Shown here piece after piece: positions 3,348 through 63,471 of a stretch of 64,000 nt of DNA. The notes below the pieces were generated by a model that worked only from the letters and a program-made list of their open reading frames with translations, did no database searches and had not been told where the DNA came from. Made by a program: the position numbers and the translations under genes. The stretch lies in the NCBI RefSeq assembly GCF_002001205.1, contig NZ_MUNZ01000079.1, positions 1 through 64,000 on the forward strand, in the 5' to 3' direction. This DNA is from Hydrogenophaga sp. A37 (GTDB taxonomy: Bacteria; Pseudomonadota; Gammaproteobacteria; Burkholderiales; Burkholderiaceae_C). How positions within the stretch are numbered: position 1 is the stretch's first letter; every line of letters starts with the position of its first letter.

Positions 3348-6044
3348 ATGAACATGGATTTTGTGAAAGAGCATCGTCACGGCTGGGTGCAGTCCAGCTT
3401 CGCTTTGATGTTGGTTCTGCTGTTGGCAGGCTGCGGCGGAAACGATCCCAACAAGGCCATCGGCGAGAGTGAGGCTGAGGCGGTGGCAGTGCCCAACGCT
3501 CAGTTGAACGCACAGTCCTTGGCCGAAGCAGAGTCCCAAGCACTCCAGGCAGACGCTTCGGTGCCCTTGGAGAGCCTGCCACCCGGCAGCATTGCCCCCA
3601 AGGTGGCCTACACCTCGGGCGCCATCGCTCGCAAAGCTGCGTTGGTGGGCACCTTGGCCTATCGCTTTTACAACGCCAGCAACGGCGCTCACCTCTACAC
3701 CATCAGCACCACCGAACGCGACGAGTGGGTGGGCAACTCCTCGTTCACTCTGGAGGGCCCGGCCTTCTCGGTGGCCGCTTCTTCCTCGCCCGGTCTCTCT
3801 CCGGTGCACCGCTTTTACAACGTCCGAAACGGGGCGCGCTTCTACACCGCCAGCGAGACCGAGCGTGCCAACGTAGCCGCCACCTTGCCGCACTACAGAT
3901 ACGAAGGAGTGGAGTACCACGCCAGCCAAGTGGCTGGTACCGGCCTGGTACCGCTCTACCGGTTCTATGTGCCGAGCAAGGAGTTTCACTTCTACACCGC
4001 CGACGAGGCTGAGAAGGCCTACATCCGTGCCAATCTGAGCGATGTCTACAGCTACGAAGGCATTGGCTACCACGTGCTTTCCACCCAAACCACTCCCGAG
4101 GACCCCCCCGAGGCCCGCGTTATCAAACACCCAGGCGTTGGGCTCACCCTCTCGGATCTCCAGACGCTCAAGGCGAACGTCGATCAGGGCAGGGAGCCGT
4201 GGAAGTCTGGGTTCAATAATCTGGCCAACCGTCCCAACGCCAGGATCACCTACGCAGGGCGTGGTGGCCCGTTCGCGAAGGTGAGCCGCGCCCCCGACGA
4301 GAATCTCAATGCTTGGCGCAGCGACATGGCCGCGATCTCGGACCAAGCACTGATGTGGTATTTCACTCAGAACGAGCGATACGCGAAGACTGCAAAGTGG
4401 CTGCTGCTTAGGTGGGCCACCACCCACGTTGAGTTTTCAGGTCGCGAGTCCATGCTGGATCTGGGCGACTACGCTGCCGCGTTCGTGGGCGGTGCGGAAA
4501 TCCTGCGCAGCACCTACCCGGGCTGGACGGAGGCAGACACGGCGACCGTCAAGACGTACTTCAAGAACGTCCTGATTCCGGCAGCGAATCCCTATGGCGA
4601 AAGCATGTTCGGCGCAGCCAATAAGGGCTCACTGTCCCTCGTCGCGTTGGGGCTGATGGCGATCTACAACGACGACGCTGAGTTGCTGGACAAGGTTGTC
4701 TATCAGACGCGCACGCTCGCCCATATCGGGTTGCGAAATTCCAATGACATCGGCATGCTCGGCGATTACCTTCGCGACCAGGGGCACGCCCATGGGCAGC
4801 TCGCGTCACTGACCATGCTGGCCGAGGCGCTCTGGAGCCAAGGCATCGACATTTATTCCGACTTTGACAACCGCCTGCTGGCGGCGGGTGAGTATTGGGC
4901 GAGGGTGAACGAGTTCGTCCCCACGACAGCCCTTCCTTTCGGCACCACCGATCGCTACTACACCTCTGACGTCACCAATCGCGGCTGGGACGGCGCCAAT
5001 CGCGGGAGCGTGGCGCTCACTCAGCTCTATGGCGCCTACGTCCTGCGCAAAGGTATCCAGGCACCCTTCATCGCTCAGAGGCGCCTTGGGACGTCCGTGG
5101 GCGGCACCGCCTTCTTGTTCCTCAAGGAGTCCGACACCTCGAAGGCGACGCCCCCGCCGCCGCTGCCCATTCCTTCGGCCACCTCGATCACCTCGGGGTT
5201 CAGCAGTGCTGACATCGGGGGTCCCAGCCAAGCCGGCGCGGCCACATACGCCGCCGGAAAATGGAACGTGGCCGGGTCAGGCTGGGGTATCTGGGACGCA
5301 CTCGACAGCTCCCACTTCGCCTACAAGGCCCTCACCGGCAACAGCACCATCATCGCGAAAGTCGAGTCGGTCGAGAACACCCATCCGTCCGCAATGGCGG
5401 GCGTGATGATGCGCACAAGCCTGGAGTCAGGCGCTCCGCGCGCCTGGATGGCGATCAATAGCAACGGTCAAGCCTTACAGAACATGACGAAACTGGCGGT
5501 GTATGGCAGCTCGAACTACGCAAACAAGGCATTAACCAATGGGAGCTCTGGGCCCATTAACTGGGTGAAGCTCGAGCGCATCGGGAACATCATCACCGGC
5601 TACATTTCTCCCGATGGCACCAATTGGGCAGCCACCAATGTTGGCCGCATCAACGCGCCGGTTCCGGACACCATCTATGTCGGATTGGTGACCACGTCGG
5701 TCACAAGCAAGCTAAACAACAGCGTCTTCAGCAATGTCCAGATCACCGGCGGCGACGGTGGTGCGCCGATCGTCATCCCCGCAGCGCCCGCCATGCTGCT
5801 GGCCTCGCCGGGCGATGGTGCCGTGCCGCTGCGCTGGCAGGCGTCCTTCGGTGCCACCAGCTACACCGTTCACCGCTCCACCTTCAGCGGTGGTCCCTCC
5901 GAGACGATCGCATCGGGCGTCAAGGGCAGTAGCTACACGGACACGTCAGTGACCAATGGCACCACCTACTACTACACCGTCACGGCGACCAACGCCACTG
6001 GAACGAGCGGTAGTTCTCCCGTGGACAGCGCCACACCGCGTTAG
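3348..6044 (+). CDS. Modular lipoprotein: DUF5648 + alginate-lyase-like + ConA-like + FN3
   Basis: The product is an 898-residue surface or periplasmic lipoprotein. The signal peptide ends in a lipobox (LLAGC, Cys29). Residues about 100-245 hold three repeats of the DUF5648 type (YRFYNASNGAHLYT, HRFYNVRNGARFYT, YRFYVPSKEFHFYT). Residues about 255-525 resemble the all-alpha alginate lyase fold (PF05426), including a conserved-looking RDQGHAHGQ stretch. Residues about 565-750 look like a DUF1349-type concanavalin-like beta sandwich, and 755-898 contain a fibronectin type III domain. The likely role is polysaccharide binding and cleavage, but the substrate is unknown and catalysis is not proven. 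A TAG stops the frame just before a discoidin-like domain that is still readable downstream, so the protein has probably lost its C-terminus. An alternative start is Met3. Confidence 0.85.
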   Translation: MNMDFVKEHRHGWVQSSFALMLVLLLAGCGGNDPNKAIGESEAEAVAVPNAQLNAQSLAEAESQALQADASVPLESLPPGSIAPKVAYTSGAIARKAALVGTLAYRFYNASNGAHLYTISTTERDEWVGNSSFTLEGPAFSVAASSSPGLSPVHRFYNVRNGARFYTASETERANVAATLPHYRYEGVEYHASQVAGTGLVPLYRFYVPSKEFHFYTADEAEKAYIRANLSDVYSYEGIGYHVLSTQTTPEDPPEARVIKHPGVGLTLSDLQTLKANVDQGREPWKSGFNNLANRPNARITYAGRGGPFAKVSRAPDENLNAWRSDMAAISDQALMWYFTQNERYAKTAKWLLLRWATTHVEFSGRESMLDLGDYAAAFVGGAEILRSTYPGWTEADTATVKTYFKNVLIPAANPYGESMFGAANKGSLSLVALGLMAIYNDDAELLDKVVYQTRTLAHIGLRNSNDIGMLGDYLRDQGHAHGQLASLTMLAEALWSQGIDIYSDFDNRLLAAGEYWARVNEFVPTTALPFGTTDRYYTSDVTNRGWDGANRGSVALTQLYGAYVLRKGIQAPFIAQRRLGTSVGGTAFLFLKESDTSKATPPPPLPIPSATSITSGFSSADIGGPSQAGAATYAAGKWNVAGSGWGIWDALDSSHFAYKALTGNSTIIAKVESVENTHPSAMAGVMMRTSLESGAPRAWMAINSNGQALQNMTKLAVYGSSNYANKALTNGSSGPINWVKLERIGNIITGYISPDGTNWAATNVGRINAPVPDTIYVGLVTTSVTSKLNNSVFSNVQITGGDGGAPIVIPAAPAMLLASPGDGAVPLRWQASFGATSYTVHRSTFSGGPSETIASGVKGSSYTDTSVTNGTTYYYTVTATNATGTSGSSPVDSATPR

Positions 6045-8867: not shown

Positions 8868-8875
8868 AAACACCC

Positions 8876-8956
8876 CTGCCGCGCTTCGCGCGACCCCCTC
8901 AAGGGGCGGCACTGGCCGTCCGGCAAAGCCGGCCCGGCGGTGCCCTTGGTTGGGCT
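8876..8956. repeat. Dispersed repeat family 1, copy A
   Basis: A GC-rich element lies between the convergent ZIP and kinase genes. It carries CCCCCTCAAGGGG, the core palindrome CCGGCAAAGCCGG (8920-8932) and the flanks CACTGGC and GTGCCCTTGG. The same order of motifs occurs at 16070-16142, 16217-16290 (inverted) and, more diverged, 56303-56389 (inverted). Confidence 0.7.
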
Positions 8957-8960
8957 TCGT

Positions 8961-11531
8961 TCAGTCGACTGTTGGACGACCAAAAGAAAACCAGAAGCTC
9001 GCTCCCTTGCCCACCGCGCCTTCGCCGCAGATGTGGCCACCGTGGCGTTCGATGATGCGGCGCACCGTGGCCAAGCCGATGCCGGTGCCCTCAAATTGCA
9101 GGGGCGAGTGCAGCCGGGTGAACGGCTGAAACAGGCGGTCGGAATGCGCCATCTCGAACCCGGCGCCGTTGTCGCGCACACAAAACGTCGGTGCTTCGCC
9201 GGGCGGGGCGCTGATCTGTGACAGCTCGATGCGAGGGTGAGTCTCCTGGCGGGTGTACTTCCAGGCGTTGCCGAGCAGGTTTTCCAGCACGATCTGCGCC
9301 ATGCGGGGGTCGCAATCGGCCATCATGCCCGGCGCAATCACCACCTCGACCTCGCGCGCCGGGTCGCGGTGGCACTCCTGGCGCAGCACGTCCTGCGCGA
9401 GTTGGCTCAGGTTGACCGAGGTGCGTTGCAAGGTGCTCTGGCTCACGCGCGCCAGTGCCAGCAGGTCGGTGATGAGGCGGTTCATGCGCGCCACCGAGCC
9501 CGCCACGCGCTGCAGCAGGTCTTCGTCGTCCGGGGTCAGGCGGTCGGCCATCTGTTCCTGCAGCAGGTGCATGAAGCCGTCGATGGAGCGCAGCGGCGAC
9601 TTCAGGTCGTGCGAGACCGTGTAGGCGAAGGCGTCGAGCTCTCGGTTGAGGTACTGCAGCTGTTCGGTGCGTGCCGCCACGCGCTGCTCCAGGGTGTCCT
9701 GCAGCTTCTGGATCTCGCGGTCGCGCCGAAGGCGCACCAGCTCGGCGTTGCAGCGGCTGGCAAAGATGGTGAGCAGGGCGCGGGTGTCTGCATCGGTGGC
9801 TTGCCGGTGGCCCCAGGTGGCGACCAGCAGGCCGATGGCGGTGCCGTCTGGGTCGCGCAGGACCATGCCGGCCAGGGCCTGTACCCGGTCCGGGTCGAAG
9901 GGCGGGGTGTCCAGGCGCTGGGAGGCCGTGCGGATGTCTTCCACCAGCAGGTCCTGGTGCGGCAGGATGCGCGCGTAGGTGGTCTGGTCAAGGCTCAGCG
10001 TCCGGTGGGGCCGCAGCTCGCCGTCGCACAGCAGGGCGAGGGTGTCGAGTTGCTGGTGGTCGGCGCTGAGTTCGCCGATCACGACCCCATGGGCCCCGAC
10101 GGCCCGGGCCAGGCGCTCCGCCAGCGAGAGGAAGAAGGCTTCACCGGTGGCCGACGAGACGCCCTGGGCCACGTTCATCAGCAAGGCCCGCTGGCGCTTT
10201 TCTTCGGCCACGTTGATCGTGAAGGTCAGCGCGCAGGCCTCGCCATCGAGCTCGATGGATTCGGCCCACATCCGGACATCCACCTCCTCGCCCTGTTTGT
10301 TGCGCATGCGGGTTTCATAGCCCAGCAGCTGGCCGTCCTGACGCAGCTGCCGGGTGTAGTCGTCGCGGTCGGCCGGGCTGAGCCAGGCGCCGATCTCCAG
10401 CGAGGTCTTGCCCGCGCAGTCGGCTTGGCTGTAGCCCAGCACCCGCTCGTTGGCGGCGTTGGTTTCCATGAAGCGGCCGTCGGACATCCGCGTGATGCTC
10501 ATGCCCAGCGGGCTGAAGTTGAACGCCTTGGAGAACCGCTCCTCCGATTTCTGCAGGGCTTGGCGCGCCCGTTCCTCCACGCTGATGTCGATCACCATCA
10601 CGAAGAGCAGGCGCTCGGGCCCGTTCTGCACCACCTCGGCGTACATCAGGGCTTCGAACAGGCTGGCATCGCGCCGCCGTCCCAGGGTTCGCATGCCGCG
10701 CACACGGCCATGGGCCTTGAGTGCCGCGCGGAAGGTCTTGTCATCGGCGGGCTTGGCCCAGAGGGTGGGCGGGGGCTTGCCGAGCATTTCCTGGCGGCTG
10801 AAGCCGCTCATGTCGGCATACGCATCATTGACGTCCACCACCATGCGGGTGTTGAGCGACTGCACCAGGCAGGCGGCGGGGTTGCCACGGAAAAGGGCCC
10901 TGAAACGTTCTTCGCTGGCGCGCAGATCGGCTTCGGTCTCCAGGGTCTGGTTCAGGCTGTCCGCCAGGCGGTGGTAGGCCTTCATGAGGCGGTGGCGCCC
11001 GAAAAACACGCTCACCAGAATGGTGGCGATCACCGAGGTGTGCACCAGCCAGACCGCCCAGCCCATGCGCATGCCGGCGGGCACGAAGATGCCGCGCTGC
11101 TCCAGCCAGTTGAAGAGGCCCAGCACGAGGGTGCAGTAAACACCCACGGCGATCATGCCCTGGCGGGGCAGGAAGCTGCCGGCCAGCACCACGGTCGCCA
11201 TCATGGCGATCACCGCGCTGCTGCGCACGCTGCCGTCGAGCGCCGTGGCCAGTGTGGTGCCCAGCAGCATGCTGCCAATCAACGCGTAGGTCACCAGCCG
11301 TATCTGGCCGTGGCGAAACGGCAGCCACAGCGCCCAGAGCACGACGGAGAGCAGCGCGATCACCACGACCACCCGGGTCGCGCCGTCGCGCAGGAACACG
11401 GCGGTCGCGATCGAGGGCGCGGCCACGCACAGGGTCAGCAGCAACGCGCGCACGGCCTGCTGCTGGTGACGTTCGATCACGCCCGTCTGTCCCGGGGCCA
11501 GTGGGTCGTCGGTGAGGATGGAGTTGTCCAT
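8961..11531 (-). CDS. Membrane sensor histidine kinase (PAS-PAS-GAF), copy 2
   Basis: This 856-residue protein has five or six N-terminal membrane segments (about 28-185), two PAS domains (about 205-330 and 335-455), a GAF domain (about 465-605), a short coiled coil and a HisKA domain with the phospho-acceptor His641 (VSHDLKSPL). It ends in a HATPase domain with the N box (LENLLGNAWKYT), G1 (DNGAGF) and G2 (GTGIGLA). All catalytic motifs are present. It has no receiver domain and no response regulator gene beside it, so its partner is elsewhere. It starts 10 bp after the stop of a paralogue with the same architecture, which implies a tandem duplication and one transcript. The signal is unknown. 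Confidence 0.93.
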   Translation of the reverse strand: MDNSILTDDPLAPGQTGVIERHQQQAVRALLLTLCVAAPSIATAVFLRDGATRVVVVIALLSVVLWALWLPFRHGQIRLVTYALIGSMLLGTTLATALDGSVRSSAVIAMMATVVLAGSFLPRQGMIAVGVYCTLVLGLFNWLEQRGIFVPAGMRMGWAVWLVHTSVIATILVSVFFGRHRLMKAYHRLADSLNQTLETEADLRASEERFRALFRGNPAACLVQSLNTRMVVDVNDAYADMSGFSRQEMLGKPPPTLWAKPADDKTFRAALKAHGRVRGMRTLGRRRDASLFEALMYAEVVQNGPERLLFVMVIDISVEERARQALQKSEERFSKAFNFSPLGMSITRMSDGRFMETNAANERVLGYSQADCAGKTSLEIGAWLSPADRDDYTRQLRQDGQLLGYETRMRNKQGEEVDVRMWAESIELDGEACALTFTINVAEEKRQRALLMNVAQGVSSATGEAFFLSLAERLARAVGAHGVVIGELSADHQQLDTLALLCDGELRPHRTLSLDQTTYARILPHQDLLVEDIRTASQRLDTPPFDPDRVQALAGMVLRDPDGTAIGLLVATWGHRQATDADTRALLTIFASRCNAELVRLRRDREIQKLQDTLEQRVAARTEQLQYLNRELDAFAYTVSHDLKSPLRSIDGFMHLLQEQMADRLTPDDEDLLQRVAGSVARMNRLITDLLALARVSQSTLQRTSVNLSQLAQDVLRQECHRDPAREVEVVIAPGMMADCDPRMAQIVLENLLGNAWKYTRQETHPRIELSQISAPPGEAPTFCVRDNGAGFEMAHSDRLFQPFTRLHSPLQFEGTGIGLATVRRIIERHGGHICGEGAVGKGASFWFSFGRPTVD

Positions 11532-11541
11532 GGGGCGGTGG

Positions 11542-14133
11542 CTACACGGTCGCCGCAGGGGGAGGCAAGGGCGCGCTCACCGGCCCGGATCCCGCCGTCA
11601 GCGTGAAGTGGAACACCGCGCCTTGGCCAGGGGCGGATTCGCCGCTGATGCTGCCGCCATGCCGCTCGACAATGCGACGCACCGTGGCCAGACCGATGCC
11701 GGTGCCTTCGAACTGGCGGGGCAGGTGCAGGCGCTGGAAGGGTTTGAAAAGCTTGTCGGCGTACTGCATGTTGAAGCCCACGCCGTTGTCCCGGACAAAG
11801 AAGGTGCCGGGTGCATGGCTGTCGCCGGACAGCTGCCGGAACTCGATCAGCGGATCGGCTTGATCGCGGGTGTATTTCACCGCGTTGCCGAGCAGATTCT
11901 CCAGCGCGATGAAGGCCAGGCGCGCGTCGCAGTGGCAGACCATGCCTGGCGTGATGTGCCAGCGCAGACGCCGTTCGGGCTGTCTCGTCTGCTCGGTCAA
12001 CATCACCTGTTCGGCCAGGGCGCTCAGGTCGGTCTCGACGCGAGACAGCGTGCCCTGGCTGACGCGCGCCAGTGCGAGCAGGTCGGCAATCAGCAGGCTC
12101 ATGCGTTGCGTGGCGCCGAGCACGCGGTCGAGCAGGGCGCGTTCATCGGGGCGCAGGCGGTCGGCCACTTCTTCGCCCAGCAATCGGGTGAATCCGTCGA
12201 TGGCGCGCAAGGGTGACTTCAGGTCGTGCGACACCGAGTAGGCGAAGGAGTCCAGTTCGGCATTGAGCTTTTGCAGCTCGGCGGTTCGTTCGCGAACCCT
12301 TTGCTCCAGCGATGAGTTGAGGCGCTGGATTTCGCGGTCGCGCCGCAGCCGGATCAGCTCGGCGTTGGCCCGGCTGGCAAAGATGGCGATCAACGCGCGG
12401 GTGTCGTTGGGCAGCTCAATCGGCTGTCGCCAGAACGCGTTGAGCAGGCCCACGGGCGTACCGTCTTCGTCTCGCAGCGACTGGCCCACATAAGCCTGCA
12501 AACCTTCGGCGACCAGTAGCTGGTCTTGCGGAAAGCTTTGTGTGAGCTGGCTCTCGAACACGCAGAGCTGCGACTGATCCAGTGCCACGCCACATGGAGC
12601 ACCGTCCAGACCGAAGGTGAAATTGTGGCTGGCGGTGCCGTCTTTCCAGACCGCCAGGGTGCGCACTTGACGGTTCTCGCGCAGTTCGCACACGGTGACC
12701 ATGTCGGCACCAATGGCCTGCGCCATGTGCATCGTGAGCACCTGAAACAGCGCGTCGCCGCTGGGGCCTGCCATGCCGCGGGTGAGCGCCATCAACTGGG
12801 CTTCCCGGCGCTTCTCTTCCGTGGTGTTGACGAAGCAGGACAGGACGCAGTCTTCACCATCCAGTTCAATCCGCTCTGCCCATATCTTGGCGTCGATCAG
12901 CTGTCCATCGGTGTGTCGCATCTGGGTTTCGTAGGCACTGACATGGCCATCCCGTTGAATGCGCTCGATGAAGGTCTGGCGCTCTGCCTGGCTCAGCCAT
13001 CCACCAGTTTCCAGTGTGGTTTTTCCCAGGAGCTCATTTCTGTTCAGACCCAGCTCGGGATCTCGCGCCTGATTCACCTCGACGAAGCTGCCATCGCTCA
13101 GCCGGGTGATGGTCATCTTCAGCGGACTGAGGTTGAAGGCTTTGGCAAAGCGCTCTTCGGAACGTCTCAACAGTTCCATCGACGCGGTCTGGGCGCTCAC
13201 GTCGGCGATGGTGGTGATGATCAGCTTGTCTTGTGGGTCGTTGCCCATTTCGCTGGACACCATGGCGTCGAACCGGCTACCGTCCGAACGCAGGCCCTTG
13301 CACTGGAACTGAAGCACCTGACGGTGGTTGATCAGTTGCTGGAGAAACACCTCGCGTTGTGCGGGCTCACCCCAGAGAAAGGTGTCATCGCGACCCAGGG
13401 CCTGGTCACTGGTGTAGCCATAACAGCGTTCAAAGGCGGGGTTGACGTCCAGAATCAAACCATTGCGGCCCGACAGGGCAACCATGGGGCTGGGGTTGGC
13501 GTGGAAGATGCGGCCAAAACGCTCCATGCTGCGGTCACGTTCCTGCTCGGTGCGTTTGCGCAGCGCCAGTTCGTCGGCCATCTGTTGGTAGGCTTTTTGC
13601 GCGCGGGAGCGACTGTAGAAAACGAGCATGGCCACCACCACCAGCACGGTGGAGTGGGTGAGCCACACCGTGGAGCCCGTGTTGTAGTTGGGTTTGACCA
13701 GCAGACCGTGCCGCTCGGCCAGGGTGATTGAGCCCAACATGGCGATGCCGTACACCACCGACCCGATGAGCGCCTTTTTCCCCAGGAAGACGCCCGCGCC
13801 GACCACCGAGGCCACGACCACAAAGCCTCCCCCGGCGCGCACCGAGCCGAAGATCATCATCTCCAGGCCAGCGGCTGTCATCACGCCGAACACCATGAAA
13901 TAGGCCGTGTGGGTGATGGACATGCGGCCGCTGCGCATCATCCACAGGCTGATCCAGCCCACCGAAGCGATCAGCGCTGTGACGCCGGTTTCCCACACGC
14001 TTCTGCTGCTCAGGTACATCAATGGTGTGAGCACGGTGGCGGACACGCCGATGAGCAAGGCGATCGATTGATGCATCGCCTTGATGGTGACTGCTTCAGT
14101 GTCTGCAGCGAGGGGCGGCGAGGGTGTGGTCAC
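11542..14133 (-). CDS. Membrane sensor histidine kinase (PAS-PAS-GAF), copy 1
   Basis: This 863-residue protein is the upstream member of a tandem kinase pair. It has about six N-terminal membrane segments, two PAS domains (about 210-335 and 340-455), a GAF domain, a coiled coil and HisKA with His636 (VSHDLKSPL). The HATPase domain has the N box (LENLLGNAVKYT), G1 (DNGVGF) and G2 (GTGIGLA). The kinase core is close to its neighbour, while the membrane region and first PAS domain have diverged, so the two probably sense different cues and may share one output. The longest frame begins with GTG at 14133 without a good ribosome binding site; the in-frame ATG that follows AAGGCG, about 18 codons inside, is an alternative. 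Confidence 0.92.
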   Translation of the reverse strand: MTTPSPPLAADTEAVTIKAMHQSIALLIGVSATVLTPLMYLSSRSVWETGVTALIASVGWISLWMMRSGRMSITHTAYFMVFGVMTAAGLEMMIFGSVRAGGGFVVVASVVGAGVFLGKKALIGSVVYGIAMLGSITLAERHGLLVKPNYNTGSTVWLTHSTVLVVVAMLVFYSRSRAQKAYQQMADELALRKRTEQERDRSMERFGRIFHANPSPMVALSGRNGLILDVNPAFERCYGYTSDQALGRDDTFLWGEPAQREVFLQQLINHRQVLQFQCKGLRSDGSRFDAMVSSEMGNDPQDKLIITTIADVSAQTASMELLRRSEERFAKAFNLSPLKMTITRLSDGSFVEVNQARDPELGLNRNELLGKTTLETGGWLSQAERQTFIERIQRDGHVSAYETQMRHTDGQLIDAKIWAERIELDGEDCVLSCFVNTTEEKRREAQLMALTRGMAGPSGDALFQVLTMHMAQAIGADMVTVCELRENRQVRTLAVWKDGTASHNFTFGLDGAPCGVALDQSQLCVFESQLTQSFPQDQLLVAEGLQAYVGQSLRDEDGTPVGLLNAFWRQPIELPNDTRALIAIFASRANAELIRLRRDREIQRLNSSLEQRVRERTAELQKLNAELDSFAYSVSHDLKSPLRAIDGFTRLLGEEVADRLRPDERALLDRVLGATQRMSLLIADLLALARVSQGTLSRVETDLSALAEQVMLTEQTRQPERRLRWHITPGMVCHCDARLAFIALENLLGNAVKYTRDQADPLIEFRQLSGDSHAPGTFFVRDNGVGFNMQYADKLFKPFQRLHLPRQFEGTGIGLATVRRIVERHGGSISGESAPGQGAVFHFTLTAGSGPVSAPLPPPAATV

Positions 14134-15170: not shown

Positions 15171-16055
15171 TCAATGCTCTTCGGCCGGCGAGTTGGGAAT
15201 CGCGCGGGCGCGCAACACCGTGGCGGTGATGCCGCTCGCGATGATCAGCGCCATGCCCAGCCAGCCCATCAACGGCAACTGGTCGCCGAAAATCACCAGG
15301 CTGTAGATGCCGGCGAACACGATGCCCGAGTACTGCAGGTTGGCCACCACCAGGGTCGCGCCGCGCGAATAGGCGCGTGTCATGCACAGCTGGCCGCCCA
15401 GCGCCAGCAGCCCGATGGGCAGCAGCCACAGCGCGGCCGGCCAGGTCCAGGGCGTGGCGCCGACAAACACCATGCCCAACAAACCCGCCAGCACCGCGCC
15501 GATGGAGAAATAAAACACCGTGCGGCTCTCGGGCTCGCCCGCGCGGCTGAGCGCCGTCACCTGCAGGTAGGCAAAGGCCGCGAAGATGCCCGACAGCAGC
15601 CCCACCAGCGCGCCCAGCACCTGGTCCGGGTTCAGACTCGGCCGGAGCATCATGGCGACACCGGCAAAGCCCGCCAGCACGGCCATGAACAGCGGGCCCT
15701 GCTGCCGCAGCGGGGCATCGCGGCCCTGCGTCAGCAGCGCGCCGCCGAGCAGGAAGGTGGCGATCCAGACGCTGCTCATGTAATTGAGCGTCATGGCCGT
15801 GGCCAGGGGCAGCACGGCGATGGCATAGAACCAGGCGGTCAGCGAAATGGTGCCGACCAGGCTGCGCCAGAGGTGCATCATCGGTACCGTGGTGCGCAGC
15901 GAGATGCCGCGCGCGCGGGTGAAGCCATACAGGAAGATCACGCCCACCATGCCCCGGTAGGCGACGATCTCGAAGCTGTTGAAATGCACCGAGGCCAACT
16001 TGATGCAGACCCCCATGGTCGCGAAGAACAGCGAGGCGAGCAGCATCCACGCCAT
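15171..16055 (-). CDS. EamA/DMT family transporter
   Basis: This inner-membrane protein of about 294 residues has ten predicted hydrophobic segments arranged as two EamA halves, the drug/metabolite transporter layout. Members export amino acids, metabolites or drugs; nothing here fixes the substrate. The ATG at 16055 (MAWMLLASLFFATMG) puts the first membrane helix right at the N-terminus. A longer frame from a GTG at 16088 would run into a dispersed repeat and is less likely. It lies downstream of the Rieske oxygenase on the same strand, separated by an inverted pair of repeats. Confidence 0.9.
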   Translation of the reverse strand: MAWMLLASLFFATMGVCIKLASVHFNSFEIVAYRGMVGVIFLYGFTRARGISLRTTVPMMHLWRSLVGTISLTAWFYAIAVLPLATAMTLNYMSSVWIATFLLGGALLTQGRDAPLRQQGPLFMAVLAGFAGVAMMLRPSLNPDQVLGALVGLLSGIFAAFAYLQVTALSRAGEPESRTVFYFSIGAVLAGLLGMVFVGATPWTWPAALWLLPIGLLALGGQLCMTRAYSRGATLVVANLQYSGIVFAGIYSLVIFGDQLPLMGWLGMALIIASGITATVLRARAIPNSPAEEH

Positions 16056-16069
16056 ATCAGAAGTCCCCT

Positions 16070-16142
16070 GCACCGCCTGCGGCGTCACCCCCCAGGGGGC
16101 GCCACTGGCTGCCCGGCAAAGCCGGTTCCGCAGTGGCCTTGG
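16070..16142 (+). repeat. Dispersed repeat family 1, copy B
   Basis: This copy has the order CCGCCTGCGGCGTCAC, CCCCCAGGGGGC, CACTGGCTGC, CCGGCAAAGCCGG (16113-16125) and GTGGCCTTGG. It is nearly identical, in opposite orientation, to copy C at 16217-16290. Together they form an inverted pair around about 75 bp. Confidence 0.8.
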
Positions 16143-16214
16143 ACGAAGGCACGCCGCGCTGGACGTGCTGCAGTTTCAGATGGAACGACACGTGAGAGGT
16201 GTCTGGTGCGAGAG

Positions 16215-17423
16215 TCACCGCGGAACCGGCTTTGCCGGGCAGCCAGTGACGCCCCCCTGGGGGGGTGACGCTGCAGGCGGCGCGGGGGGGAGCATCCGCC
16301 TGTACCACTCGTGAAAGTGCTGCATGCCGTCTTCCATCGGGCTTTGGTACGGGCCGACCTCGTTGTCGCCGCGCGCCAGCAGGGCTTTGCGCCCAGCGTC
16401 CATGCGCTCGCCGATCTCGTCGTCCTCGATGCAGGTCTCCATGTAGGCCGCGCGCTGGGCTTCGACGAACCCGCGCTCGAAGGCGGCGATGTCCTCGGGG
16501 TAGAAGAACTCCACCCGGTTCAGGGTCTGGTGGACGCTGATCGGGTGCAGCGTCGAGACGGTGAGCACGTGCGGGTACCACTCCACCATGATGTGCGGGT
16601 AGTAGGTGAGCCAGATCGCGCCGTGGTCGGGCGCCGCGCCGTTGCGGTACTGCATCAGCTGCTGGTGCCAGCGCTGGTAGACCGGGCTGCCGGCCTTGCC
16701 CAGCAGGTTCTGTGCGCCCACGGTCTGTACCGAGTACTCAGGCTTGAATTCCCAGCGCAGGTCGTCGCAGGTGACGAAGCCGCCCAGACCCGGGTGGAAC
16801 GGGACCACGTGGTAGTCCTCCAGATAGACCTCGATGAAGGTCTTCCAGTTGTAGTTGCAGGTGTGCAGCTCCACGTGGTCGAGCACCATGCCGTCGAAGT
16901 TGAGTGCCGCGCGCGGGCCCATGCCGGCGAGGTCGGCCTCGATGTCGCGGCCGTTGTCCTCGAACAGCAGGCCGTTCCATTCGCGCAGCGGGTAGCGTTT
17001 CAGATCCAGGCAAGGGTCTTGAGCGAAATGCGGAGCGCCGAGCAGGGAGCCGATGGGATTGCCGGTGTTCTGGCCGCCGCTGTAGGTCCAACGGTGCAGC
17101 GGGCAGACGATGTGGCCGCCCGAATGCCCACTCTGGGTCTGGCCCAGGTTGCCCCGGCCTTTGAGCATGACGGCCTGGCGGTGACGGCAGACGTTGGAAA
17201 CCAGTTCCACGCCGTTGGCGGTGCGCACCAGGACCCGGCCTTCGCCTTCGTGGGGGAGTGCGTAGTAGTCGCCGGGTTCGGGCACGGCGTTGGCGTGCCC
17301 CACGTAGCGGGGCCCTCGCTGGAAGATCGTTGCCAGTTCCTGCTGGAACAGCGCCTCGTCGAAATAGCTGGAAACCGGAAGTTGGCTTTCGGCCTGCTGG
17401 AGTTGAAGACTCAAATCAGACAT
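16215..17423 (-). CDS. Rieske aromatic ring-hydroxylating oxygenase, alpha subunit
   Basis: This 402-residue protein has the two signatures of ring-hydroxylating oxygenase large subunits. The Rieske [2Fe-2S] ligands are Cys79-x-His81 and Cys107-x2-His110 (CPLH). The mononuclear iron site is in EDYHVVPFHPG (His205 and His210). It would use electrons from a separate reductase to oxygenate an aromatic or quaternary-amine substrate; no reductase or ferredoxin gene lies nearby. The last 24 or so residues are encoded by a dispersed repeat, so the natural stop codon has probably been replaced and the tail is unlikely to be functional. The start is ATG at 17423. Confidence 0.92.
   Translation of the reverse strand: MSDLSLQLQQAESQLPVSSYFDEALFQQELATIFQRGPRYVGHANAVPEPGDYYALPHEGEGRVLVRTANGVELVSNVCRHRQAVMLKGRGNLGQTQSGHSGGHIVCPLHRWTYSGGQNTGNPIGSLLGAPHFAQDPCLDLKRYPLREWNGLLFEDNGRDIEADLAGMGPRAALNFDGMVLDHVELHTCNYNWKTFIEVYLEDYHVVPFHPGLGGFVTCDDLRWEFKPEYSVQTVGAQNLLGKAGSPVYQRWHQQLMQYRNGAAPDHGAIWLTYYPHIMVEWYPHVLTVSTLHPISVHQTLNRVEFFYPEDIAAFERGFVEAQRAAYMETCIEDDEIGERMDAGRKALLARGDNEVGPYQSPMEDGMQHFHEWYRRMLPPAPPAASPPQGGVTGCPAKPVPR
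16217..16290 (-). repeat. Dispersed repeat family 1, copy C, within the Rieske gene
   Basis: This is the inverted partner of copy B, with core CCGGCTTTGCCGG at 16226-16238. It overlaps the last 24 or so codons of the Rieske oxygenase gene and supplies the tail read as PPQGGVTGCPAKPVPR. Confidence 0.8.
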
Positions 17424-17699
17424 GAAGGTCTTGACCTAAAGACTCCCCCTATGAAGGGGCAGGGTGAAGCGCGTAGCGAGTGAACGATCGGCGCGGGAAG
17501 GGTGGAAGTGCTGCGTCCCTCCGGGCGTTGGCGGCCCGTCAGTTGAGTGATGAAAAAAAGAGCGCGGATTGTACCCCGGGGGTGTGACGAATGCCTCCTC
17601 TGCGACGGGGCCGGAACGCGGGGGATAAAATCTGCCGTCGCTGCGGCTGTGTCGCGGCCGTTTGACGGGCCGCCCCCGTGGCCCCTTTCGACCTTTTGC

Positions 17700-27706: not shown

Positions 27707-28054
27707 ATGAAAAAGACCGTTCTGCTCGCCTCCCTGCTCGCCGCCATCGCCCTGACCGCTTGCGGCAAAAAGGAAGAAGCACCTGTTGCCGCTCCTGCTG
27801 CTGAAGTGGCCCCCGCCGTTGAAGCCGCCAAGGACGCTGCTGGCGCCGCTGTCGACGCCGCCAAGGATGCTGGCGCCGCTGCTGCCAACGCCGGTGCTGC
27901 TGCTGGCGCCGCTGCTGGTGCTGCCGCCGCTGGTGCTGCTGACGCCGCCGCCACTGCTGCCAAGGACGCCGCAGTCACCGCTACCGACGCAGCCAAAGAA
28001 GCCGCTGACAAGGCTGCTGAAGCCGCCAAGGCCGCTGCCAAGCCCGCCCAGTAA
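27707..28054 (+). CDS. Small alanine-rich lipoprotein
   Basis: This 115-residue protein begins with a lipoprotein signal peptide and lipobox (ALTACGKKEE). Almost all of the mature part is alanine with regularly placed Lys, Asp and Glu (AAKDA, AAKEAADKA), which predicts one long amphipathic helix or an alanine coiled coil. This recalls Lpp-type lipoproteins, but no C-terminal lysine for peptidoglycan attachment is seen, so an equivalent role is only a guess. The ATG has GAGGAA upstream. A strong terminator follows. Confidence 0.88.
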   Translation: MKKTVLLASLLAAIALTACGKKEEAPVAAPAAEVAPAVEAAKDAAGAAVDAAKDAGAAAANAGAAAGAAAGAAAAGAADAAATAAKDAAVTATDAAKEAADKAAEAAKAAAKPAQ

Positions 28055-41947: not shown

Positions 41948-43264
41948 GTGCATGGGCCGCTTCGAATGGAACCCTCCGAACCTGCTTTTCGTCCGCCATC
42001 AATCATGTTCCCTATGTTGAAACCCCCGCTCACCATCGGCCTGTGCACACAGGTTGTTTCGACGGCACGCGGAACAGTCCATGTGGGCATCGCGCTGTTG
42101 TTCGCTGTGCTGGTGACAGCGTGCGGCGGGGGCGAAGCCCAGGGTGATGCTGTTCAGCTCGACCGGGCGCCGCAAAAGGAGGTGGTCGGGACGGCCGGAC
42201 CCCAGTCAGTGCCTGGCGCTTTCCGCAAAGAAGCCGAGATTATGGAGGCCGCGGCGGTGTTGAACCGCCAGGAACTCGACAAGGCAGCCTTGGCACAACC
42301 ATTGCAACCCATGCAACAGACCGCAGGGTCGACGGAGCCCCGCACGCTGAATGCGGTTACCAAGGCGGCGACGGCATCGGTGCCGGTCTATCGCTTTTAC
42401 AACGCTTCAACCGGTGCCCACTTCTACACCACCAGTGCGACCGAGCGGGACTCGATCCGAGCCCGTCTGCCCAGTTATTCCTACGAAGGCACGGCCTTTG
42501 AGGCCCTGGCGCAGGCTGGCACAGGATTGGCACCTGTCTACCGCTTCTACAACACGCAAACCGGCGTGCATTTCTACACGATCAGCGAGTCCGAGAAGAA
42601 CCTGGTGCGCGACAGCTTGCCGCAGTTCCATCTGGAAGGGGTGGCCTACTACGCCAGCCAGGTGGCTGCCACGGGTTTTCGGCCGCTGTACCGGTCTTAC
42701 GTGCTGAACAAAGGCTTCCACTTCTATTCCGTCAACGCGTCGGAGACCGCTGGTTTGGCTCAGTACCGCGCTGAAGGCGTTGGGTACTACGTGGTGGGCA
42801 CGGCGCCCGAGCCCGATCCCGGAACCGCCGACGCCACCTGTCAGTTGGCCAACTTTCAGGTCGACCTGATGCAACAGATCAATGCCGCCCGTGCCGTGGC
42901 GCGCAGTTGCGGCAGCACGGCCCGCCCGGCCGCCACCGCTGTGTCGTGGGACGCCGCCCTGGCTGCGGCCGCTGCGCGCCATTCCAGCGACATGGCCCAA
43001 AACAACTTCTTCAGCCACACCGGCAGCGATGGCAGCACCGTGGGGCTGCGCGCCACGGCAGCGGGCTACAGCTGGTCGGCCATTGGAGAAAACATTGCGG
43101 CAGGTCACACCACTGTGTCGGAGGTGATGACCGGTTGGCTCAGCAGCGAAGGGCACTGCAACAACATCATGAACAGCGCCTACACCCATGTCGCCCTGGC
43201 TTGTGTGGCGAAGCCGGGCACCACCTACACCAGGTATTGGACGATGGTGCTGGGCCGGCACTGA
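41948..43264 (+). CDS. Lipoprotein with DUF5648 repeats and CAP domain
   Basis: The mature protein begins at a lipobox (VLVTACGGG, Cys59 from this start). Three DUF5648-type repeats (YRFYNASTGAHFYT, YRFYNTQTGVHFYT, YRSYVLNKGFHFYS) are followed by a CAP/SCP domain with the usual His-Glu-Glu-His pattern (FFSHTG, GENIAAGHT, GWLSSEGHCNNIMN). It shares the DUF5648 block with the lyase-type lipoprotein at 3348, which suggests that this block is a surface or ligand-binding adaptor. CAP proteins bind sterols or act on peptides; the role here is unknown. The start is uncertain: GTG at 41948 has an ideal AGGAGG six bases upstream; ATGs at 41933, 41966 and 42005 lack one. Confidence 0.85.
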   Translation: MHGPLRMEPSEPAFRPPSIMFPMLKPPLTIGLCTQVVSTARGTVHVGIALLFAVLVTACGGGEAQGDAVQLDRAPQKEVVGTAGPQSVPGAFRKEAEIMEAAAVLNRQELDKAALAQPLQPMQQTAGSTEPRTLNAVTKAATASVPVYRFYNASTGAHFYTTSATERDSIRARLPSYSYEGTAFEALAQAGTGLAPVYRFYNTQTGVHFYTISESEKNLVRDSLPQFHLEGVAYYASQVAATGFRPLYRSYVLNKGFHFYSVNASETAGLAQYRAEGVGYYVVGTAPEPDPGTADATCQLANFQVDLMQQINAARAVARSCGSTARPAATAVSWDAALAAAAARHSSDMAQNNFFSHTGSDGSTVGLRATAAGYSWSAIGENIAAGHTTVSEVMTGWLSSEGHCNNIMNSAYTHVALACVAKPGTTYTRYWTMVLGRH

Positions 43265-56302: not shown

Positions 56303-56389
56303 TTGCCCAGGGCACCCAAGGATCCGGCTCCGCCGGTCCCAGGGTGCGCCCCCCTTCAAGGGGGGACGCGCGAAGCGCGGCGGGGGGTA
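56303..56389 (-). repeat. Dispersed repeat family 1, diverged copy
   Basis: Read on the minus strand it has CCGCGCTTCGCGCG, a CCCCCTTGAAGGGGGG-type palindrome, CCGGCGGAGCCGG in place of the core, and GGGTGCCCTGGG. It lies between the convergent channel and LOG genes, as copy A lies between convergent genes. Confidence 0.5.
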
Positions 56390-56390
56390 G

Positions 56391-58251: not shown

Positions 58252-58327
58252 TTCGGCGCCGGGCCGCCCCAAGCCGAAACGCACCCCCTTGGGGGGCAGC
58301 GACCCGCGCAGCGGCGGAGCGTGGGGG
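58252..58327 (-). repeat. Dispersed repeat family 2, copy 1
   Basis: This 76-bp GC-rich element is nearly identical, in opposite orientation, to 63397-63471. Shared blocks include CCCCCACGCTCCGCCGCTGC, GGGTCGCTGCCC and GGCCCGGCGCCGAA. It lies just after the efp stop codon. Confidence 0.85.
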
Positions 58328-63396: not shown

Positions 63397-63471
63397 CCCC
63401 CACGCTCCGCCGCTGCGTGGGTCGCTGCCCTCCGAGGGGGCTGATCCGGCTTGGGGTGGCCCGGCGCCGAA
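63397..63471 (+). repeat. Dispersed repeat family 2, copy 2
   Basis: This is the inverted near-copy of 58252-58327, placed directly after the uvrC stop codon. As with copy 1, the element begins one to ten bases after the end of a gene. Confidence 0.85.

Follow-up and report, generated by a model that had tools for sequence, protein, structure and literature searches.

The inverted repeat pair between the genes for a Rieske oxygenase and an EamA-family transporter in Hydrogenophaga sp. A37 is most probably a doublet of a REP-like, hairpin-forming and mostly stop-proximal repeat family of Hydrogenophaga and relatives, of which one copy (unit C) became the end of the oxygenase. The units of this family are dispersed, keep their hairpin by compensatory change, stand in the same orientation behind genes, and pair with their C-run edges outwards. 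We analysed a stretch of 64,000 nucleotides from this strain (the window) and followed the repeat into the rest of the genome and into related species.

A covariance model placed unit B at 16063-16142 on the plus strand (95.9 bits), with its 5' C-run edge adjoining the EamA start, and unit C at 16209-16290 on the minus strand (82.0 bits), with its 5' C-run edge towards the oxygenase. The two inverted units, each of about 80 nt, are separated by a 66-nt spacer (16143-16208), which can be aligned in part with spacers from other, unrelated doublets of this repeat. A repeat search delimited two arms of 48 nt (16088-16135 and 16216-16263) that are 92% complementary, with 80 nt between them. The RNA of the junction is predicted to fold into one long stem at -186.1 kcal/mol (mean of shuffles -113.8, z = -15.1, 0 of 200 shuffles as low); B and C each also form a predicted hairpin of their own, which could compete with the long stem. 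Both neighbouring genes lie on the minus strand. The initial annotation had thus correctly described near-identical inverted copies, able to form a hairpin, between the oxygenase and an EamA gene on the same strand.

The oxygenase gene (17423-16215, minus strand) encodes a Rieske non-haem iron oxygenase alpha subunit of 402 aa (PF00355 and PF00848) that ends in PPAPPAASPPQGGVTGCPAKPVPR. Solved Rieske oxygenases are distantly related to it, the best match being the oxygenase subunit of carnitine monooxygenase (E = 2.6e-12). The Pfam match to the catalytic domain (PF00848) stops at residue 378. Unit C continues the reading frame, with no stop codon before it, and the repeat provides the last 24 residues of the predicted protein (P379-R402) together with the TGA stop codon (16215-16289, minus strand), which lies in the outer stem of the unit. 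The assignment of the last 24 or so residues to copy C, made in the initial annotation, therefore stands, and the predicted tail of the oxygenase is derived from the repeat.

A search of the genome with a 231-nt stretch gave 87 matches, a number that includes the query and matches on both strands of one place. Nineteen units were aligned with MAFFT (alignment A1), a structure was predicted from the alignment, and a covariance model was then built. The predicted fold has three stems, the last of which has 15 pairs and a CCGGC-NNN-GCCGG tip. In alignment A1, 97.8% of the cells are paired and 11 of the 24 pairs have changed on both sides; in shuffles the mean was 4.0 and 0 of 500 reached 11, and sliding the partners by 1-3 columns gave at most 3. 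The model matches at least 150 places in the genome (150 of 150 scored), from which we extrapolate a total of about 200-350 units. Four units fall under E 1e-6 in the 64-kb window. The third (8869-8949, plus strand) has its edge 5 nt past the TAG that ends a 296-codon open frame, and the fourth (56307-56390, minus strand) has its edge 3 nt past the TGA that ends a 292-codon open frame. A sequence profile found three units in the window and three in five further 20-kb stretches. At E 1e-5 the covariance model has matches in 39 of 40 same-genus genomes, which are presumably all Hydrogenophaga (own genome included; at most 117 matches scored in each), and with one genome per genus across the family it matches 52 of 100 at E 1e-7 (own included); up to 46 matches could be scored per genome there, and no genome of another genus had more than 29. 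Rfam gave three matches in 15900-17600, none at gathering score (the highest 18.6 bits against 35), and no published description of the family was found in the part of the openly accessible literature that was covered.

Several other repeats were noted in the window. Stretches at 9000-9788 and 11617-12405 are 71-85% alike in pieces at a constant spacing of 2617 and probably represent paralogous sensor-kinase genes in tandem (named as kinases by eye, from ORF 11542-14133). A motif of about 67 nt is repeated some 38 kb apart, at 3656-3869 and 42385-42601, and by eye codes for a YRFYN...HFYT-like stretch, and 27813-28043 contains 33-nt repeats at multiples of 33 nt, alanine/lysine-rich if read (by eye). 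A different inverted repeat pair, at 58252-58327 and 63397-63471, has two copies about 5 kb apart that match over 44 nt at 93% and over a further 36 nt at 83%; its right copy begins 1 nt past the TGA of a 722-codon open frame, and this second family may also be stop-proximal.

To describe the position of the units we took 129 stretches around the 150 places, in which 158 units were found by profile, and called genes by a coding score of our own, for which long open reading frames were the training set. The C-run edge lies 1-15 nt past a predicted same-strand stop codon in 112 of the 158 units; random placement in 58 intergenic gaps put 14% near a stop. Control counts among the 158 were 2 for the 3' edge at a stop on the opposite strand, 6 for the 3' edge at a start on the same strand and 1 for the 5' edge at a start on the opposite strand. 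The remaining 46 units comprise 5 that are read through, 14 that lie further away and 27 without such a gene end near; the 27 include both units of the window pair, which were misread by the gene caller. Some of these 46 are gene-call failures and some are real. Sixteen of the 158 were called inside a predicted gene, several of them through doubtful overlapping calls. In a second species (G025), whose stretches, 1.2 Mb in all, were chosen partly for holding units, 74 of 120 units have a stop codon no more than 15 nt away (3'-edge control, 3); of the other 46, 4 are read through, 7 have their edge near a gene start on the opposite strand and 35 lie in other positions. The units thus have both features of REP-like elements in the broad sense, namely dispersed palindromic copies mostly outside genes and a stop-proximal position. 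The initial view of a local pair that rewrote one gene gives way to that of a unit found genome-wide and mostly behind stop codons.

The same observations bear on the possibility that the units are functional 3'-end elements, which protect mRNA 3' ends or brake translation and are kept by selection, and that the pair tunes the oxygenase against EamA. The position and orientation behind stop codons and the compensatory change in the hairpin are consistent with such a role, as is the slow turnover of the units. Of the 158 units, 43 could be compared with the second species at both flanks (left out were 112 for which the stretches covered did not contain orthologues of both flanks and 3 whose flanks were too far apart), and 32 of these 43 sites have a unit in the same place and orientation. 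However, 10 of the 43 have no recognised unit in the second species (by eye, some hold diverged relatives and others are apparently empty), and at one, the window's C, only the opposite unit is present. Furthermore, with the extrapolated 200-350 units most genes of the 5.5-Mb genome would be left unserved, and template switching or conversion can keep palindromes matched without functional selection. We regard a selected 3'-end function as a possible but less likely alternative to the reading as a repeat family with a preference for stop codons.

Single units prevail (130 of 158), and among distinct pairs less than 250 nt apart 13 of 14 in the own genome are edges-out, one is tandem and none is edges-in; the second species gave the same numbers (13 of 14, 1 and 0). 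In 10 of the 13 doublets of the own genome each unit has a gene ending on its side of the pair, and in 7 of these the distance is at most 15 nt for both units. Because the spacer is 33-57 nt long in 19 of the 26 edges-out doublets of the two genomes and a spacer motif is shared, the doublet has the look of one compound repeat. As a general rule, concerted evolution of the arms was considered and rejected: mean likeness was 0.73 within doublets and 0.74 between them, and 1536 of 2000 permutations were as high as the observed value. Within alignment A1, GGCTGCC was seen by eye only in the two units of the window, most copies having GGCGGCC.

The doublet of the window is unusual in lying between same-strand genes, with the edge of B facing the EamA start; locus L190 holds a second doublet between same-strand genes. 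The position of B is uncommon but not unique, because 7 of the 120 units of the second species have an opposite-strand gene start near their edge. The EamA-family transporter gene (15171-16055, minus strand) probably starts at the ATG at 16055, as indicated by comparison with orthologues, rather than at the GTG at 16088 of the open reading frame list. By eye, the sequence AGGGGA at the edge of B (16064-16069, minus strand) lies 8 nt before this ATG and is a possible ribosome-binding site; an orthologous locus with B only (L022) has GGGAGGA there (by eye).

Edges-out doublets with preferred spacers and related spacer sequences are also what would be expected of a REP/REPIN system in which a Y1 transposase (RAYT) copies the doublet, and a Y1_Tnp gene is present in 34 of 40 genomes of the genus, mostly as a single copy (one in the own genome). 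Such an origin is nevertheless quite unlikely. Among the 31 Y1_Tnp loci examined (of 36 listed; about 1.5 kb on each side, less at contig ends) none had a unit, whereas according to PMC2817692 a rayt gene invariably has its own REPs at its flanks; since this flanking is absent, the units do not group with RAYT-borne REPs in that respect, although they share the inverted doublets of REPINs. In addition, no GT(A/G)G head before the palindrome stands out by eye in alignment A1, and one genome (G016) has a Y1_Tnp gene and no unit at E 1e-5.

We then compared the 3' ends of oxygenase orthologues. The nearest named orthologue (L051, Hydrogenophaga sp. MAG_7), with 99% protein identity and 95% identity of the gene DNA over 1122 columns, ends in HFHEWYRGRMRTE and a stop codon at 381 aa. 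L022 (protein 96%) ends in RMRTA, also at 381 aa, and L024 (90%) ends in RMRTE at 379; all three are without the tail, which agrees with the earlier proposal that C replaced or extended the C-terminus. Behind B, L024 showed no match to EamA; judged by eye, a convergent gene seems to end here, so that the gene order differs. The survey comprised 111 rows (the window, 30 loci and the best 80 of 590 relatives; L021 is the gene of the window itself), a sample that gave 104 distinct ends after identical 200-nt ends were merged. Neither unit nor tail is present in 91 of these. The pair and the tail occur together in 6 and C alone with the tail in 2, so that the tail is found in 8 distinct ends (window included), each with a unit; a C-side unit without a repeat-coded tail occurs in 2 (L037 and L077), and B alone without a tail in 3 (L051, L022 and L024). 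A tail without a repeat unit, the observation that the initial annotation had named as contrary to its claim, was looked for and found in none of the 104. The tail thus occurs only with the repeat, the nearest orthologues are shorter, and the native stop codon is gone, as in a repeat-derived C-terminus. The alleles, too, lend no support to a local pair that rewrote one gene: repeat-coded tails are present in seven other distinct same-genus alleles of the oxygenase, and B is the sole unit at the junction in L051, L022 and L024.

A gene tree was built from 39 of the surveyed sequences, and the alleles with the pair are scattered in it: the state 'pair' needs 6 changes, 5 of them forced by well-supported branches, and the state 'none' needs 6, of which 4 are forced. 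The window, L051 and L022 group together with full support, and of the three only the window has C. As judged from this tree, the history of the junction comprises several gains, losses or exchanges, and would involve either repeated gain of C, or recombination of pair alleles between species, or many losses. The spacers of the window, L023, L031 and L033 align above shuffles (z 3.7 to 5.9, 0 of 300 in all six comparisons), but the same spacers match unrelated doublets about equally well, and their similarity was dropped as proof of common descent. A 14-nt C/G run was likewise discarded as a rare shared mark, being common genome-wide (37 of 129).

Of the 10 distinct ends that have a C-side unit, 8 carry the tail, against 5 read-through calls among 158 units genome-wide, and all nine same-genus C-side alleles share one entry frame, a phase taken by 48 of 105 units genome-wide. 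This frequency and common frame exceed plain accident and could mean shared descent of the alleles or selection on the tail. Five alleles (the window, L023, L031, L033 and L045) end at the same outer-stem TGA, which is rare at that place (GTGA in 2 of 71 GTGN ends genome-wide, window included), and together with the common frame this leans towards shared origin or selection. That the oxygenase gained a useful proline-rich C-terminus is, even so, distinctly improbable. It would account for the eight distinct ends with a tail, the single frame and the recurrent TGA, but the great majority of the sampled ends, among them those of the closest relatives, do without the tail, L038/L063 and L037 end early, and the constraint on the repeat itself confounds any test of selection on the protein. 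A broader version, in which the stop-anchored hairpins form a genome-wide system of 3'-end control and stop loss donates a proline-rich tail kept in frame across lineages, also appears unlikely. We read the 24-residue end added by the repeat as an accident of an uncommon kind, for which precedents exist, and see no new system in it.

An intrinsic terminator between the oxygenase and EamA genes, which the very stable predicted hairpins might suggest, is highly improbable and was rejected, because no terminator-like site was found at 15900-16500, a T-run follows only 8 of 157 units, so that the units are not in general intrinsic terminators, and the next called gene after a unit is on the same strand in 79 cases and on the opposite strand in 60. 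Terminator-like hairpins with T-runs were seen by eye inside the spacers of two other doublets (L188 and L351) and directly behind the unit of L266, indicating that units can lie between a stop codon and a terminator.

On the reading of the pair as a doublet of a dispersed stop-proximal family, a unit would have arrived or been copied in behind the oxygenase gene, and the native stop codon would later have been lost by a small deletion or a base change; in L023 it looks like TGA changed to TGC. The tail may be neutral, tolerated through its position past the end of the catalytic domain. As regards the function of the repeat units, we infer that they fold in the mRNA and modestly affect its decay or the end of translation, as for the stop-proximal REPs of E. 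coli, and the edge of B may serve as the ribosome-binding site of EamA.

The work found on why REPs cluster behind stop codons concerns E. coli. An unrelated repeat in other bacteria, with clear placement and orientation, offers independent material on the control of translation or mRNA decay by stop-proximal hairpins, and the oxygenase provides a natural series of one gene with and without the tail across related species.

Both halves of the finding have precedents, since stop-proximal REPs (PMC12306157) and an amidase lengthened by a repeat (PMC2759123) have been described. Rickettsia palindromic elements are palindromic repeats inserted within genes and read as protein; compared with them, the Hydrogenophaga units lie mostly behind stop codons and are rarely read. 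The RU repeats of enterobacteria are ERIC-type. In one report on RU fusions, a repeat has lengthened an amidase of Erwinia carotovora, apparently by taking away its stop codon (Delihas 2007, PMC2759123), and this case shares with the oxygenase a repeat-added C-terminal extension past the conserved domain with the normal stop apparently removed; the differences are the repeat itself and the repeated occurrence of the oxygenase tail at a single junction, in several species of the genus. RAYT-associated REP doublets and REPINs (PMC2817692) form compound repeats in which two inverted units enclose a spacer, as here, whereas the Y1_Tnp genes of Hydrogenophaga were not flanked by units at the loci examined. 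In arrangement the units also resemble the REP/BIME elements of E. coli, for which PMC12306157 gives many dispersed, GC-rich imperfect palindromes, inverted doublets and a share within 15 nt past the stop codon (446 of 4,072, and 260 of 496 in a study cited there), and cites an earlier study in which stop-proximal REPs stall ribosomes. In comparison, the Hydrogenophaga unit is about 80 nt or longer, has three stems and C-runs, is unrelated in sequence, shows no GT(A/G)G head by eye, and stands near a stop codon in 112 of 158 cases.
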